Positions 5,765 to 33,769 of a stretch of DNA of 37,130 bases are shown here, piece after piece. The notes beneath the pieces were generated by a model. The model searched no databases and had not been told where the DNA came from. It saw only the letters and a list, made by a program, of their open reading frames with translations. Source of the stretch: Kiritimatiellia bacterium (GTDB taxonomy: Bacteria > Verrucomicrobiota > Kiritimatiellia > RFP12 > UBA3636); contig JAGCJJ010000091.1 in NCBI GenBank assembly GCA_017648065.1, forward strand, positions 1-37,130, written 5' to 3'. Both the position numbers and the translations under genes were made by a program. Numbering within the stretch: the first letter of the stretch is position 1; each line of letters starts with the position of its first letter.

Positions 5765-6751
5765 TTAGAGACCTGGTGCTACAATCTCGTCTGATACCGC
5801 CTCAGGGAATTCGCTATATTCTTCTGCAATAAATCCATCTATGAAAGCATCCTGCTCCATCTCTGGAGACATAGCAGCATTTTCTTCTACATCAGCTTGA
5901 GATTCTTGTACAACTTCAACCGCATTGCGTAGCTCCTCTTGACGTTGAGCTTCCTCTTCCTTTGCCTTACGTTCCGCTTGCTCTTTCTCTTCTCTGGCAA
6001 TACGTTCCTCTTCAAGCTTACGCTTTCTCTCCTCCATTCTAAGTCTATGCAATTCTCGGAAAGAAATTCGTTCTACGCCATCTGCATCCTTAATAGTTAC
6101 TGCTTCGCGCACCTCATCAGACAAATTTAAGCCATCAATAGCTTTTTCTTCTTTTGTTTTTTTGCTAGGAGTCTGCTCTTTTACAACAACACTATTTGTT
6201 GCGGCAATGCCGGTATCGAAAACATTAAGTACCGACAATCTGCCAGAAGTCGGATGAATAGTAATTTCTTGAGGCTGTCCAGCGGCATAACTCATTGTAA
6301 TATTGGCAATTGCATTAGTAGTTTCCAACAAAATAGAGTTTTCACCAATATCAGTAAGAGTATATCCTAAAATAGATTGTCCCTTAGTCAAATAATATGT
6401 ACGCTTAGAGCTTATCTCAACAATTCCTGCCGCAGGAACGCCCCTATATGTAGTAATCGCTGTAAGCTTAATATTTTTCCCTAATAAATCTGCTTCTTTA
6501 GCTAATTCCTCCTGAAGCTTTATTTGCTCTGGAGTCAGCTCTGGAACATTACTGGTCGTTTCAGCTTTTCGTATTACACTACCAAATGGAGCTCTATCAA
6601 CGATAACATTATAACGCTCAGGCACCAGACCTGCATATATAGTTGTGCCACATAAAAACAAAATTGCACCAAGCCACAATTTTTCCATATTGAACTTGAT
6701 GCAATTATTAGTTTTCATTTTTATGTTTTTGGGTTTTTCCGACTCACACAT
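5765..6751 (-). CDS. Envelope protein with a GspC/PilP-like domain and charged coiled coil
   Basis: The reading frame encodes 328 residues; translation may begin at Met1, Met12 or Met22, and no start has a clear ribosome-binding site. Met22 gives the cleanest signal sequence (EKLWLGAILFLCGTTIYA). The mature N-terminus YNVIVDRAPFG resembles the 'I..RNPF' motif at the start of GspC/PilP-type periplasmic domains. The following beta-rich part (about 93-150) contains YLTKGQSILGYTLTDIGENSILLE, the style of a HR domain that binds secretin. Residues about 225-290 are a Glu/Lys/Arg-rich coiled coil, and the tail is acidic. I infer a role in a type II secretion or type IV pilus envelope complex, perhaps with the ATPases at 18-23 kb. 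Similarity is by eye only; it could be an unrelated envelope protein. Confidence 0.6.
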   Translation of the reverse strand: MCESEKPKNIKMKTNNCIKFNMEKLWLGAILFLCGTTIYAGLVPERYNVIVDRAPFGSVIRKAETTSNVPELTPEQIKLQEELAKEADLLGKNIKLTAITTYRGVPAAGIVEISSKRTYYLTKGQSILGYTLTDIGENSILLETTNAIANITMSYAAGQPQEITIHPTSGRLSVLNVFDTGIAATNSVVVKEQTPSKKTKEEKAIDGLNLSDEVREAVTIKDADGVERISFRELHRLRMEERKRKLEEERIAREEKEQAERKAKEEEAQRQEELRNAVEVVQESQADVEENAAMSPEMEQDAFIDGFIAEEYSEFPEAVSDEIVAPGL

Positions 6752-6783: not shown

Positions 6784-7623
6784 CTACTTCACAGAATAAC
6801 GAGTAGCCTTAGTTAAAACCTTCCAAAGCTCCTCTTGTGTAGTTGCCTCAATAGCAGCTTTAGCATTTGATTCTTTAACAAAAGAATCGGTCAAACCTGC
6901 AAGTAGTTTTAGGTAGAATGCACTTACCGCAGTAGGAATAGTTGAGAAAAAGATAATATGAGCCAAACCTTCCTTTGCTCCACCAAAAGGCACACCCTTC
7001 TTACTTACACCAAATGCAAGGGCTAAGCCACCGCCCTCAATACCACGCACGTGAGGGAAAGCAAGTCCATGACCAATACCTGTACCAAAAATTGTTTCAC
7101 GGGCAATTGCTGCCTCAGTAAGTTTATCTGCGTTATCAATAAAGTGAGCTTCCTGCAAGCAATTAGTTAATTCAGCAATAACCTCCTCAGGTGTGCTACC
7201 TTTCAAATCTGGGATCATCAATGCTGGTGAAGAAAAACGTGCAATACCAACTTTACGCTCACCCTCAGAACGCTTAGGGCTATCAGCAACCCACTTTGCT
7301 CCTGTTGGGTCATAAAGAACACGAGCACAGCCTGGGCATGGAGTAAGTGCATTACATTGCTTTACAGACTGAAGTTGAGAAATAGCTAACTTCATACCAC
7401 ACATTGAGCAACAACCATTATTAGTTGGTGCTAGAACGATATGATCCTTTTTATACAAACGAGTATATAATGCGCGAGCCTCTGGAGAAAGAGATTGTGT
7501 CATTGCATCAATATTCTTATTTAATTCTGAAAGATCTGCTGATGCTCCTTTTATAGAACGTTGTTCATCACGAATTAATGTGAGTTCCTGAAGCTGAATT
7601 AGATGGTTAATTATACTACGCAT
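6784..7623 (-). CDS. Zinc-ribbon / PTS EIIA (PtsN-like) fusion protein
   Basis: This 279-residue protein joins two modules. Residues 1-110 have a helical start (IINHLIQLQELTLIRDEQ) and a four-cysteine zinc ribbon with CSMC at 72-75 and CPGC at 96-99, followed by ARVLYDP, as in the C4-type zinc-ribbon family (PF02591-like, CdsZ/Slr-type). Residues about 127-279 form a PTS EIIA type-2 (fructose/nitrogen) domain, with phosphorylatable His191 in GIGHGLAFPH and the typical GVPFGG and HIIFFSTIP segments. EIIA-Ntr domains usually serve as phosphorylation-state sensors rather than transporters. No EI, HPr or EIIBC genes are nearby. It is followed at 32 bases by the GspC-like gene, so the two probably share a transcript. 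Confidence 0.85.
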   Translation of the reverse strand: MRSIINHLIQLQELTLIRDEQRSIKGASADLSELNKNIDAMTQSLSPEARALYTRLYKKDHIVLAPTNNGCCSMCGMKLAISQLQSVKQCNALTPCPGCARVLYDPTGAKWVADSPKRSEGERKVGIARFSSPALMIPDLKGSTPEEVIAELTNCLQEAHFIDNADKLTEAAIARETIFGTGIGHGLAFPHVRGIEGGGLALAFGVSKKGVPFGGAKEGLAHIIFFSTIPTAVSAFYLKLLAGLTDSFVKESNAKAAIEATTQEELWKVLTKATRYSVK

Positions 7624-7802
7624 ATCTTACTAGTTCCTATTGTTAAAAGTATATTGGTATATGGGATATTTTTTGAGATATATTTTCTCTTTTTTTATTT
7701 TATTTGTCAATAATTAATAAAAAAAAATTTAACATAAATATTTCAAAAAGCATTAATGCCATTTTATTTTACATATTGAACATGGTAAAAAGAACAAATT
7801 CA

Positions 7803-18189: not shown

Positions 18190-19890
18190 TTATGTATAAC
18201 GTAGAACCTCGTCAACAGTGGTGTAACCATCAAGAATATTGATAACACCATCCTCGCGCATTGTACGCATTCCTAACTCACGAGCCTTCTCACGAATTGC
18301 AAGCGTAGGGCTGCGATTTGAAATCATCTCACGGATTGGATCTGTAACTCGTAGATACTCATACAAACCCTTACGTTTACGATAACCAGCATGATTACAT
18401 TGATCACAGCCCGCACCAAATGCGAACTGACGCCCAGCAACCTCTTCCTCAGTAAGCTCAAGGCGCTTCAAGATATCTGGTGTTGGATCATAGAACTTCT
18501 TACAATTTGTGCAAATTGTACGAACAAGACGCTGTCCTAGCACTGCCTCAAGTGTAGAAGCAATCAAGTATGGAGCAATATCCATATCTACAAGACGTGT
18601 CACGGCACCAGCAGCATCGTTTGTGTGAAGTGTTGAGAAAACCAAGTGACCTGTCAATGAAGCCTGCACAGCAATCTGCGCAGTTTCAAGGTCACGAATT
18701 TCTCCCACCATGATTACGTCAGGGTCTTGACGCAAGAACGCACGCAGTACCTTAGGGAAGGTGTTGCCTTGTACAGGATTGATTGGCACCTGAACAATAC
18801 CTTCAATATCATATTCAACAGGCTCCTCAGCTGTTAGCAGCTTTGTGCCCTCTTTGTTGATACGACGCAAGCATGAGTAAAGCGTTGTTGTCTTACCAGA
18901 ACCTGTAGGACCTGTAACAATAATAATACCATTTGGCTTTGTCACATCCTCACAAATTGCATTATAAAGATATTCTGGCATACCTAAATTTTCAAGGTCC
19001 AAAGACACAACTGAGCGATCAAGCACACGAAGCACAACTGACTCACCAAACTGTGTAGGCAAGCAAGATACACGAAGGTCAATCTGCCTGCCACCTACTG
19101 GCAGCTGAATACGTCCATCCTGAGGCAAGCGGCGCTCAGAAATATTCAAACCAGAGATAACCTTGATACGTGAAATAACTGGTAATGCAAGAGAACGTGG
19201 AGGTGGAGACATCTCATAAAGAGCACCATCAACACGATACCTGATACGGAACTCTTTCTCAAATGGCTCAAAGTGAATATCTGATGCACGTGCATTTACA
19301 GCCTGCTGAAGCACGATACCTACAAAGCGAACAACTGGTGCTGAGCTTGAAGCATCTGCAAGTGCCTTCTCATCAAGCTCCATATCATCCTTGCCTGTAA
19401 TTTCCTCAAAGTCGGACAAGCCTGTCATGAAGTTATCCATTGCAGAGGAATCATCACCATAGTAGCGAGAAATACAATCGTGAATTTCTTTCTGACGAGC
19501 TAACACGAAGAAGATATCTCGTGAAAGCACAAAGTGCAATTCATCTGAAACAATTGGGCTTTGAATAGAATCGCAAGCAAGAGTAACTGATGTATCTGTC
19601 ATTTCTACAGGAACCACATTATACATACGAGCTACGCTACCAGGAACAACCTTTAGAATTTCTGGCATGATATCAATACCTTGTAGAGTTGCCACCTCAA
19701 GGCTATGATATGAAGCCATCTCATTTAGAAGATCATCCTCAGAGACATATCCACCCTCAACAATAAGGTCACGAATTGCTCTGCCAGAGGAAAGATGCTC
19801 GGACATTAGCTCATCACATGTGGCATTGTCCAAGAGTCCACTCATTTGGCAGACCTCTAATACAGGATCTGTTTGAAAATTATCGCTCAT
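18190..19890 (-). CDS. PilB/GspE-family assembly ATPase
   Basis: This 566-residue cytoplasmic motor ATPase powers extension of a type IV pilus or a type II secretion pseudopilus. An N-terminal GSPII_E-like domain (about 1-145) precedes the ATPase core. The Walker [14 protein letters not shown] is at 327-339, an AEEPVEY segment at 354-360 (usually EDPVEY), LRQDPD at 386-391, GEIRD at 396-400, HTND at 422-425, and a tetra-cysteine zinc site at Cys460/463/495/498. Length matches PilB/GspE. It is last in the operon, 25 bases after pilT, and ends at an intrinsic terminator. The EEP variant is conservative and probably functional. PilB versus GspE cannot be told from this protein alone. Confidence 0.93.
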   Translation of the reverse strand: MSDNFQTDPVLEVCQMSGLLDNATCDELMSEHLSSGRAIRDLIVEGGYVSEDDLLNEMASYHSLEVATLQGIDIMPEILKVVPGSVARMYNVVPVEMTDTSVTLACDSIQSPIVSDELHFVLSRDIFFVLARQKEIHDCISRYYGDDSSAMDNFMTGLSDFEEITGKDDMELDEKALADASSSAPVVRFVGIVLQQAVNARASDIHFEPFEKEFRIRYRVDGALYEMSPPPRSLALPVISRIKVISGLNISERRLPQDGRIQLPVGGRQIDLRVSCLPTQFGESVVLRVLDRSVVSLDLENLGMPEYLYNAICEDVTKPNGIIIVTGPTGSGKTTTLYSCLRRINKEGTKLLTAEEPVEYDIEGIVQVPINPVQGNTFPKVLRAFLRQDPDVIMVGEIRDLETAQIAVQASLTGHLVFSTLHTNDAAGAVTRLVDMDIAPYLIASTLEAVLGQRLVRTICTNCKKFYDPTPDILKRLELTEEEVAGRQFAFGAGCDQCNHAGYRKRKGLYEYLRVTDPIREMISNRSPTLAIREKARELGMRTMREDGVINILDGYTTVDEVLRYT

Positions 19891-19915
19891 CTCTAATTAT
19901 ACATCCCTTCTGGCA

Positions 19916-20998
19916 TTAGCCCTGCTGCATTTCCTTTAGCTTATCAACCTGAGTATCTGGGTCACGAGACTTAGAAATTAGATCCTCATAGGAGATACGA
20001 CCAGCCTTAAATAGCTCTAATAAATGTGCATCAAGCGTCTGCATACCAAACTTAGCACCAGTCTGAATATCTGAAGTAATTCGGTGAGTATTACCATCAC
20101 GAATCATTGCTGCAATACTTGGTGTATTAACCATAACCTCAAAGGCAGCAACGCGTCCAGGCTTATCAATGCGAGGAAGAAGCAGCTGAGAAATAACTGC
20201 TACCAAGCCACCAGAGAGCTGCATACGAACCTGACCCTGCTGATCTGTTGGGAATGCATCAACAATACGATCAACTGTGCTTGCAGCACCTGTTGTATGC
20301 AATGTTGCAAACACCAAGTGACCTGTTTCAGCAGCAGAAATAGCTGCCTGCATTGTCTCCAAATCGCGCATTTCTCCAACGAGAATTACGTCAGGGTCCT
20401 GACGCAAGGCACGGCGTAGAGCCTCAGAGAAAGAAGGAACATCGGAACCAACTTCACGCTGAGTAACAACAGAACTCTTATGTGTGTGATAATATTCGAT
20501 TGGGTCTTCGATTGTGATAATGTGACAAGCACGCTTCTCATTAATGTAATTAAGCATACTTGCAAGTGTTGTTGTCTTACCAGAACCTGTAGGACCTGTA
20601 ACAAGCACCAAACCACGAGGCTTATAAAGAAGTTCCTCAATCTGTGGTGGCAAACCAATTACTGACAAAGGAAGCAAATCATTGGGAATCTGGCGCAATA
20701 CTGTACCGTAATTGCCCTTACCCTTCAATACGCTGACACGGAAACGAGCCTTATCGCCAAAAGCCAAACCAAAGTCTGCACCACCATTCTCATTTACTTG
20801 GCGCATCTGGTCCTCAGTACAAATGCTACGAACAAGACGCTCTGTATCTGCTGGAGTAAGAGGAGGTGAATCTAGCGGAGTTAAATCACCGTGAATACGT
20901 AGCATTGGTGGAACACCCACTGTAATGTGAAGGTCGGAAGCATGCTCCTCAACAGCGAGCTCCATCATTGAATTCATGTCTAAAATATCTTCTTCCAT
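19916..20998 (-). CDS. pilT: PilT-family twitching-motility / retraction ATPase
   Basis: This 360-residue protein has the short PilT architecture: an N-terminal PAS-like part ([19 protein letters not shown]) and a RecA-like core with Walker A GPTGSGKT (135-142), EDPIEY, RQDPD, GEMRDLE (208-214) and ATLHTTGA. It retracts type IV pili by depolymerising pilin. The C-terminal motif AIREGK typical of PilT appears as MIRDGN. The start follows the upstream gspE-like stop by only 5 bases, and the GAGGA ribosome site lies in the end of that gene, implying translational coupling. Presence of a retraction ATPase favours a true type IV pilus system over pure type II secretion. Confidence 0.94.
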
Positions 20999-21003
20999 AG
21001 CAA

Positions 21004-22731
21004 TTAATCCTCATCACCCATTGTTACACGTAGAACCTCGCTCACGGTTGTAATGCCTGCAATCACCTTGCGGATACCATCCTCACGCAAAGTACGCATT
21101 CCTAGCTCGCGAGCTCTTGCACGAATTTCAGTCACACCTGAATTTTCAAAAATCAAGCGCTGAATTTCATCATCAACCTTAAAGATTTCAAAAATACCTT
21201 TACGTCCTTTATAACCGCTTTGAGAGCAGCGCTGACATCCAGCACCTCTGTAAAGCATTGCAGACTGAAGATCATCAACATTCAAACCTAGGCTACGTAG
21301 CTCCATTGTCTCTGGAGTATATTGTTCGCGACACTCAGTACAAATTGCACGAACAAGTCGCTGAGCCATAACAGCACGCAAAGCAGAAGCCACCTGGAAT
21401 GGCTTAACACCAATATCAAGCAAACGAGTAATTGCACCAGGAGCATCATTTGTATGCAATGTAGAGAATACCAAGTGACCTGTAAGCGCAGCTTCAATAG
21501 CAATTGATGCTGTCTCAAGGTCACGAATTTCACCAATCATTACGATATTTGGAGCCTGACGCAAGATTGCGCGCAATGCTGCAGCGAATGTCATACCGAT
21601 ATCTGCATTAACATGGACCTGGTTAACACCCGTCATCTGATATTTAACAGGGTCTTCAACAGTAATCAATTTTCTGTCAGGTTTATTGATTTGGCCTAAG
21701 CAAGCATAAAGCGTTGTGGTTTTACCGGAACCTGTAGGACCTGTAACAAGCAAGATACCATCAGGCAAGCCAATTAACTGCTCAAATGTCTGCTGGTCAT
21801 CTGTCATAAAGCCAAGCTCAGGCAAACCAAGAGACAAGTTCTGCTTATCCAAGATACGCATAACAATACTCTCGCCATGGCCTGTAGGAACAGTAGACAC
21901 ACGAAGATCAAGCTCTCGGCCTTTAACCTTGATCTGGATACGGCCGTCCTGAGGAATACGTCTCTCAGAAAGCTTCATATTAGCCATTAGCTTAAAGCGC
22001 TGAAGAATTGCACCCTGAAGGCGTTTAGGTGGAGCCTCTTGCTCACGCAAAACACCATCAATACGATAGCGGATACGGAAGCGCTTTTCCATTGGCTCTA
22101 AGTGAATATCGGAAGCACGTGAAACGAATGCGCGCATGATAATCTGAGCACAAAGCTTAACGATTGGAGCATCTGCCTCACTAGCTTGAGAAACGCCAAG
22201 CTGATCCTCGAGAGCAGAATCTTCTTCATCTCCTCCATGCTCTCCATTGGCAACTGCACCACCAAGCTCATTATAAATATCATCCATGTTTGCATCCTGA
22301 TCAGGATACAACATGGTCATCATTGTAAGAATTTGCTGACGAGGAGCAACCACCGCTTCAACATTTTTGTCAAGAGCATAGCGAAGTCCATCAAGAGTCT
22401 CGAAATTCATTGGATCAGCAAGAGCAACAGTCAATGTTCCATCCATCTCATAAAGCGGAACAACTCTGAACTTACGAGCAATATCACCAGGAAGCAGTGC
22501 ACGAGTAGCATCGCCCATATCAGCCTGTGAGATATCCACAAATTCCATACCAAAAGCCTGAGCAACAAAACCAAGAACTGTTTCCTCAGTTAGCTCACCA
22601 TTTTTCAACATAATGTCAATTACAGACTCGCCTTCACCCGTAACATTTGTTGCAGCAACTTCTGATTGCTCTTGTGTAATCACATTATTCTCGAGCAAAA
22701 TCTGTAATACATAATCATCATTCGAGGTCAC
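21004..22731 (-). CDS. GspE/PilB-family ATPase with altered acidic motifs
   Basis: This 575-residue protein starts at a GTG (22731) with a strong AAGGAGAG about 7 bases upstream. It has the full GspE/PilB layout: an N-terminal GSPII_E domain (about 1-150), an acidic linker (164-188), Walker A GPTGSGKT (331-338), GEIRD (400-404), HTND, and a tetra-cysteine site (Cys464/467/499/502). Two normally conserved acidic motifs differ: EDPVEY reads EDPVKY (359-364), and LRQDPD reads LRQAPN (390-395). The paralogue at 18190 keeps RQDPD. The Walker A and GEIRD motifs suggest it still binds nucleotide, but hydrolysis or coupling may differ. It is first in the three-ATPase operon. Confidence 0.92.
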
Positions 22732-32419: not shown

Positions 32420-33769
32420 TTATTCTTGTTCTTGGGCAACGACTTTATTGTTTTCCCAAACAGCTCTATAGCGATTATATTGAGAATCAATATAAATTCC
32501 TTCGCCCTTCACTAGGACACCATTCTCCCATCTGCCAGAGACATAAGAGCCATTTGCAAACTTGAATATTCCTGTACCATGAGGTACATTACCTTCCCAA
32601 GCACCAGAATAAACATCACCATTGTTATATGTAAAGGTACCAACACCAGAACGGCTGCCTCTAACAAACTCACCTTCGTAAAGAGTTCCATCTGGAGAAT
32701 AAAGAACTCCAACGCCATGGAAATTACCAAATTTATATGAACCCTTATAATAAGAACCATTTGAAAGGCGATCTGTCTGAGGATCATCAATAAGTGCTTG
32801 AATATGCTGCTTCAAAGTAACTTGTTTTGCCATTACTTGCTTCTGCAAATTCTGAATAGTTTCATCTGAAAATGTTTTAATTGTATTCTCTGTGGATTTA
32901 ATTACTGGTGCTGGAGCTTCCTCTTTAACAACAACCTGTTTAGGTGCTTGCTCCAATGCTGGCTCAACCTCTTCTACAACCTTTTCCTTTGTTACCTCAG
33001 CAATTTTCTTCACAGGAGCTGCAGTCTTTTTCTTTTCTGGAGCTACTGTTTCATTCTTTACTGGAACTGGTGTCTCTTTTTTCTCAGGAGTTTTAGCCAC
33101 AACAGGTGCTGGAGCTTCAGCAATTACAGTTGGTGCATTTTTTTTCAATGCATCAATAATTGCCTTTTCTGTTGTCATATCAACAGGTAGCTTTCCTGCT
33201 GCATTAGCAATATCTGTTCTTGCATCTAATTTCAACAAAAGCACAACCATTTTCAAATCGTTTGCAGCAGCAGCAAGGTGGAGTGGCATATTACCAGAAT
33301 TATCCAATGCATTTACATTTGCTCCCAATCTTGCTAAATTAGCTACAGAAAGAAGCTTTCCTGAGCGAGCAGCAAAATGTAATGGACTCCATCCATTATC
33401 TGCCTTTGCATCGATTATTGCTCCATTTTTTACTAAAAATCTTATAACATCGATAGATTCTTGCAATGCTGCCCAATGTAATGGAGTTGTATTATTCTTT
33501 TGTGGTGCGCGAACATCCACTGGAACACCTCTACGAACTAATTCATTCGCAGCGATAGCATGATTTTGAAGTGCAGCAAAATGTAAAGCTGTAAGACCTG
33601 TACGAGAAACAGAACTTAACTCTTCAGCAGTTGATGATTGAACTGTTTCAAGAATAGCACCAACATCATCATTTTTTATTTGCAAAAAAAGCTTATCTGC
33701 AAATTCAGTTGATGCAGAACATAGCTGCACAGCAATAAGAAATGATAAAAATAAAAATACTTTATTCAT
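32420..33769 (-). CDS. Secreted ankyrin-repeat / MORN-repeat protein
   Basis: This 449-residue protein starts with a signal peptide (residues 1-19, FLFLSFLIAVQLCSA). Ankyrin repeats cover about 56-191 (TGLTALHFAALQNHAIAANELV, TTPLHWAALQESIDVIRFLV, GWSPLHFAARSGKL, GNMPLHLAAAANDLKMVVLLL). Residues 215-290 are a Pro/Lys/Glu/Val-rich flexible linker, and 295-335 a short coiled coil. About 341-435 carries four MORN-type units (YKGSYKFGNFHGVGVLY, YEGEFVRGSRSGVGTFTY, YSGAWEGNVPHGTGIFKF, YVSGRWENG). Both repeat types mediate protein or membrane contacts, so this is probably an envelope scaffold. No catalytic motif is present. It follows a lipid-kinase gene by 30 bases on the same strand and ends at a strong terminator. 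Confidence 0.88.
   Translation of the reverse strand: MNKVFLFLSFLIAVQLCSASTEFADKLFLQIKNDDVGAILETVQSSTAEELSSVSRTGLTALHFAALQNHAIAANELVRRGVPVDVRAPQKNNTTPLHWAALQESIDVIRFLVKNGAIIDAKADNGWSPLHFAARSGKLLSVANLARLGANVNALDNSGNMPLHLAAAANDLKMVVLLLKLDARTDIANAAGKLPVDMTTEKAIIDALKKNAPTVIAEAPAPVVAKTPEKKETPVPVKNETVAPEKKKTAAPVKKIAEVTKEKVVEEVEPALEQAPKQVVVKEEAPAPVIKSTENTIKTFSDETIQNLQKQVMAKQVTLKQHIQALIDDPQTDRLSNGSYYKGSYKFGNFHGVGVLYSPDGTLYEGEFVRGSRSGVGTFTYNNGDVYSGAWEGNVPHGTGIFKFANGSYVSGRWENGVLVKGEGIYIDSQYNRYRAVWENNKVVAQEQE

Follow-up and report, generated by a model that had tools for sequence, protein, structure and literature searches.

Zinc ribbons of the type found in FlgZ and CdsZ belong to the family PF02591, also listed as Zn_ribbon_9, DUF164 and zf-RING_7; to our knowledge, this family is widespread and almost without assigned function. 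EIIA-Ntr (PtsN) regulates many processes, and its partners vary by species. FlgZ (HP0958) of Helicobacter protects RpoN from turnover, and the cysteines of its ribbon matter (PMC3372290); the same ribbon binds the flaA mRNA (PMC5947703). The RpoN-binding part of CdsZ (CT398) of Chlamydia is the long N-terminal coiled coil, as far as the work of Barta 2015 is recounted in PMC5947703, and the coiled coil and ribbon bind FliH and the type III export regulator CdsL (PMC5947703). CdsZ has been proposed as a sigma-54 repressor (PMC7482065). The gene for EIIA-Ntr is classically located in the rpoN operon (PMC13104625). Our literature search found no paper joining a zinc ribbon and PTS_EIIA_2, and for Kiritimatiellae and the phosphotransferase system (PTS) it returned only incidental ecology papers.

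In the window, that is, the whole stretch of 37,130 nucleotides that was analysed, a single gene joins these two modules. The features of the locus are as follows.

6784 to 7623, minus strand: the ribbon-EIIA fusion gene, an intact open reading frame of 279 aa.
7444 to 7623, minus strand: N-terminal helical lead, residues 1-60, with three predicted helices (AlphaFold2 pLDDT about 80-93) and a conserved motif L-x-Q-L-Q-E-L.
7306 to 7437, minus strand: C4 zinc ribbon, residues 63-106, with invariant cysteines C72, C75, C96 and C99, recognised by profile and Foldseek matches.
7249 to 7305, minus strand: inter-domain linker, residues 107-125, with the lowest pLDDT of the protein (block mean 65) and variable in the alignment.
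6787 to 7248, minus strand: EIIA-Ntr-fold domain, residues 126-279, recognised by a PTS_EIIA_2 match and Foldseek.
7051 to 7053, minus strand: codon of His191, the predicted phosphorylation site, which aligns with the EIIA-Ntr active-site histidine and is invariant.
6913 to 6915, minus strand: codon of Tyr237, which in the alignment replaces the second active-site histidine of EIIA and EIIA-Ntr.
5765 to 6751, minus strand: GspC-like gene, 32 nt downstream of the fusion (NCBIfam GspC_delta, E 2.8e-6, below cut-off).
7682 to 7710, minus strand: sigma-70-like promoter match upstream of the fusion, TTGACA-17-GAAAAT, suggestive only, as the count of such matches is not above chance expectation.

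The C-terminal half of the fusion matches Pfam PTS_EIIA_2 over residues 137-272 (E 4.8e-22). The ribbon of the window copy, taken alone, matches PF02591 weakly over residues 72-103 (17.1 bits; cut-off 29.1), but the ribbons of many orthologues exceed this cut-off, with up to 38.6 bits. Two more specific models fall below their cut-offs: the NCBIfam CdsZ model (NF047363) matches residues 18-105 with an E value of 3.2e-7 and 30 bits (cut-off 275), and the PtsN equivalog TIGR01419 gives 31.7 bits (cut-off 138.7). A profile built from 26 relatives matches CT398/CdsZ (4ilo, E 1.5e-10) and HP0958/FlgZ (3na7, E 1e-6), as well as EIIA-Ntr (2a0j, E 1.5e-10; 1a6j, E 8e-9). Because this profile reaches solved structures of CdsZ, FlgZ and EIIA-Ntr, both halves of the fusion are firmly assigned. 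The AlphaFold2 model (mean pLDDT 89, pTM 0.85) places helices at residues 2-28, 32-43 and 47-60, before the ribbon. When this model was compared by Foldseek, the top four matches were all EIIA-Ntr structures, 2a0j and 1a6j among them, and 4ilo (CT398) was matched over 76 columns with an rmsd of 1.8 Å. The ribbon spacing, C72-x2-C75-x20-C96-x2-C99, falls within the PF02591 pattern CXXC-X18-26-CXXC. Judged by profiles and the structural model, the protein combines a predicted C4 ribbon of the FlgZ/CdsZ family with an EIIA-Ntr-fold domain that retains the phospho-histidine. The preliminary description, made from the letters of this stretch, had reported a helical lead, a four-cysteine ribbon and an EIIA with intact His191 in one frame, and each of these elements is borne out, including the numbering of the histidine.

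Both domains are already known. FlgZ and CdsZ share with the fusion the C4 CXXC-X20-CXXC ribbon and a preceding helical segment; however, they consist of a long N-terminal coiled-coil hairpin and a C-terminal ribbon, whereas in the fusion about 60 aa of helices are followed by the ribbon and then by the EIIA domain. With EIIA-Ntr/PtsN, the fusion has in common the fold, the PHxR phospho-histidine, the Arg-Glu pair and the lack of a dedicated EIIB or EIIC. In contrast to the stand-alone, single-domain PtsN, the EIIA domain here is fused, has a tyrosine for the second histidine, and is encoded outside the rpoN operon.

The fusion is widespread among related bacteria. It was found at full length in 131 of the 145 genomes of the order (E <1e-50); a larger order total of 140 matching genomes also counts EIIA-only matches. 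None of the 14 order genomes without a full-length fusion reaches 90% completeness. Of the 240 genomes sampled in the class, about 205 match the fusion at E <1e-40. Family f23 of Kiritimatiellia departs from this pattern: the fusion is missing in 10 of its 11 sampled genomes, and the absence is real, so the fusion is not essential everywhere. Within the phylum but outside the class, families f70 and f77 also carry the fusion, and other families give EIIA-only matches. Nine residues (C72, C75, C96, C99, R101, R175, E176, H191 and R193) are invariant in 66 sequences, comprising 26 order members and 40 from other orders and another class. The genomes with close matches are mostly gut and rumen metagenome genomes. 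Beyond the phylum, sampling consisted of one pattern scan of contigs, with patterns biased to the Kiritimatiellia form. In one genome (G154, contig C1), the fusion recurs in complete or incomplete copies at intervals of about 11.5 kb close to either end of the contig (at 4391, 15900 and 27411, and at 3064018, 3075529 and 3087040), which would be either a tandem repeat or an error of assembly.

The two halves also occur as separate, adjacent genes. A search with the profile of the ribbon half revealed short ribbon genes (about 110 aa) in families f53, f64, f65, f67 and f75. Of 16 loci examined, 15 have an EIIA gene on the same strand immediately after the short ribbon gene, the exception being L322 of family f56, and the gap between ribbon and EIIA ranges from -50 to 296 nt, mostly <111 nt. 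At L312, the longer EIIA frame overlaps the ribbon, and an internal start yields the usual EIIA N-terminus. The flanks of these pairs vary by family, with an SNF2 helicase and DUF349 at L275, a DinG-like helicase at L278, a ClpX-like gene at L317 and YebC at L320. The pair at L275 consists of a ribbon protein of 112 aa and an EIIA of 154 aa. As to the survey of domain architectures that the preliminary description had called for, the phylum shows the fusion in most of the class and in f70 and f77, and split pairs in the five families above. In the EIIA tree, one clade holds all fused copies (support 91/98; the row labelled L281_other is the fusion of genome G243) and another holds 10 of the 11 split partners (100/99). 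The two clades lie within a 100/99 group that also contains a few solo EIIAs of f55-f57 and excludes the other EIIAs of the source genome. The simplest history compatible with this tree would be that the ribbon-EIIA pair fused once. Since the association is found both as a fusion and as an operon, with unrelated flanks, a joint function of the two domains is strongly suggested.

The preliminary description had pointed to the absence of EI and HPr. This is true within the window, but a genomic search showed that the source genome encodes both: a 769-aa EI of the GAF type with GGATAH in its mobile domain, and an HPr with the active-site histidine (motif GMHVRPA). In addition, a search with PF02378 found PTS_EIIC in none of 40 genomes (the source genome and 39 relatives), and the PTS therefore looks regulatory. 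In its GAF-containing EI, its HPr and its lack of PF02378 matches, the source genome resembles PTS-Ntr; it differs in that PTS-Ntr has ptsN in the rpoN operon, where the fusion is not placed. In family f1, to which the source genome belongs, EI frames are of the GAF type and about 770 aa, but elsewhere in the order most are about 600 aa; the fusion is thus not always accompanied by the sensory GAF domain. In the source genome, HPr directly follows hpf and lies beside an LptB-like ABC gene (L054, contig C95, 5102-6471); this lptB-hpf-HPr cluster is a remnant of the classical lptB-rpoN-hpf-ptsN-npr arrangement, minus rpoN and ptsN.

Three other EIIAs are encoded in the source genome, namely a solo PtsN-like protein, a Na+/H+ exchanger-EIIA and an amino-acid permease-EIIA, the latter two at L052 (10797-13124) and L053 (7547-9400). 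The statement that EIIA-Ntr proteins are normally single-domain does not hold here, as three of the four EIIA_2 domains of this genome sit in fusion proteins. In the transporter fusions, EIIA is likewise a regulatory tail in the same PTS network; their output is membrane transport, whereas that of the ribbon-EIIA would be a soluble ribbon adaptor. A further kind of fusion is seen in family f23, where an HTH_17-EIIA protein with a divergent active site (ALLHP) is encoded beside a stand-alone ribbon gene (L245, 601-1434, genome G161). It also couples EIIA to a predicted cytoplasmic regulatory module, which is a helix-turn-helix DNA-binding module and not a zinc ribbon, and it is similar to the chlamydial PtsN with a helix-turn-helix. 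In EIIA proteins, the second active-site histidine serves transfer to EIIB. A tyrosine occupies this position in all 33 fused EIIAs, whereas the histidine is retained in 9 of 11 split partners and 14 of 29 other EIIAs. The tyrosine in every fused copy fits a role of the fused EIIA as a terminal phospho-acceptor.

Taken together, the class-wide invariant residues, the recognition of both folds, the pairing as fusion or operon, the presence of EI and HPr and the absence of EIIC (PF02378) lead us to favour, as a fairly likely reading, that the fusion is a phosphorylation-gated ribbon adaptor and belongs to the four outputs of a regulatory PTS that has no permease. EI and HPr would phosphorylate the EIIA domain at His191, and the phosphorylation state of this residue may alter how far the ribbon and short helices reach or how tightly they bind a partner. 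The ribbon, of the FlgZ/CdsZ type, would bind zinc. The fusion could thereby act as a gated adaptor on a cytoplasmic partner, either protein or RNA, for which sigma-54 or its RNA polymerase would be the nearest precedent, as in FlgZ and CdsZ. Because the fusion is nearly unchanged across the class and the same parts are adjacent genes in related bacteria, it probably represents a genuine though unstudied switch by which nutrient signalling is coupled to some machinery of the cell. The phosphorylation-controlled regulator suggested in the preliminary description is accordingly left as a plausible candidate, given the conserved fusion, the intact histidine and the genomic EI and HPr. A narrower version, in which nutrient-driven phosphorylation of the EIIA half switches a PTS-controlled adaptor of sigma-54, RNA polymerase or the ribosome that operates class-wide and takes a two-gene form in related families, is rather doubtful at present; if true, it would provide a direct physical link from the PTS to the transcription or translation machinery. 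The conserved fusion, together with the operon of the same parts, gives the EIIA-Ntr and DUF164 families a testable partner. If sigma-54 were the target, the long-standing genetic connection of PtsN with RpoN would gain a direct physical basis in this group.

The identity of that machinery was considered through the neighbouring genes, counted by anchored searches around the fusion loci. No conserved neighbour that would name a target was found across the class-level fusion loci. The fusion might control a type II secretion or type IV pilus machine encoded next to it, in the manner of CdsZ, whose coiled coil and ribbon serve to bind CdsL and FliH (PMC5947703). In 9 of 14 family f1 loci, and nowhere else, the fusion is directly followed by a GspC-like gene, a probable co-transcribed neighbour in this family; in 8 other order-level loci, the gene that directly follows is a secretin gene. 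However, neither gene adjoins the fusion elsewhere in the order or class, or the split pairs examined, and the GspC match itself is weak; the envelope neighbour named in the preliminary description stands as a sub-threshold match, and the secretion link proposed there keeps its local basis only. A class-wide type II secretion link is not supported by this distribution, and since the GspC-like neighbour is confined to f1, the fusion may have a secretion role in that family only; control of secretion is an improbable reading. A regulator directed at the ribosome or RNA, in which the ribbon binds either and EIIA phosphorylation tunes the effect with nutrient state, is just as improbable. It would accord with the binding of the flaA transcript by the FlgZ ribbon (PMC5947703), with S1-domain genes that adjoin the fusion in four class- or phylum-level loci, and with the position of HPr beside the hibernation factor gene hpf in the source genome; the neighbourhoods are otherwise variable.

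As a special case of the gated adaptor, the ribbon and helical lead may bind sigma-54 or its holoenzyme, and phosphorylation of H191 may set the amount of active sigma-54. We regard this as a tentative possibility. The link to transcription that the preliminary description had suggested has its only ground in the homology of the ribbon to the sigma-54 binders FlgZ (3na7) and CdsZ (4ilo) (PMC3372290, PMC5947703). The classical encoding of EIIA-Ntr in the rpoN operon (PMC13104625) and an intact rpoN in the source genome and in all 32 good relatives would also accord with sigma-54 as the target. On the other hand, the fusion lacks the greater part of the coiled coil that binds RpoN in CdsZ, and rpoN is not near it: the fusion is on contig C4 and rpoN on C93, so the fusion is not part of the rpoN operon. 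Moreover, sigma-54 is found in 283 of 289 genomes of the phylum (the search gave no match in G331, a 94% complete genome with a split pair); it is near-universal, and co-occurrence is therefore uninformative about the target and was discarded as a pointer. The source genome also has a separate full-length ribbon protein of the FlgZ/CdsZ type (contig C81), which may perform the classical job. Given this protein and the loss of most of the coiled coil, the role of FlgZ is not transferable to the fusion. It is also conceivable, though unlikely, that the ribbon serves structure or dimerisation alone and that the protein, as one more ordinary EIIA-Ntr, works through the surface of its EIIA domain. 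Extra modules are indeed common on EIIA domains, but the four cysteines and R101 are invariant in the 66 sequences, and the ribbon, where other families encode it separately, still stays beside EIIA. That the fusion is an assembly or frameshift artefact, which the preliminary description had named as a refuting outcome, is ruled out for practical purposes, as the uninterrupted fusion recurs in well over a hundred separate genomes.

Two loci in other genomes may have a sigma-54 link. In G381 (contig C1, 2219087 and 2220782), a full-length ribbon gene lies near rpoN, and in G407 (contig C46, 79462 and 80680), rpoN lies near an EIIA of the subfamily of the fusion. Other genes of the window include three consecutive type II/IV secretion ATPases upstream of the fusion (18190-22731; GspE/PilB-like, shorter PilT-like and GspE/PilB-like) and two adjacent bactofilins (1531-2352 and 2485-2862), the larger with weak N-terminal zinc-finger-like matches (HypA, DUF7564). 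A protein with ankyrin and MORN repeats is encoded at 32420-33769.
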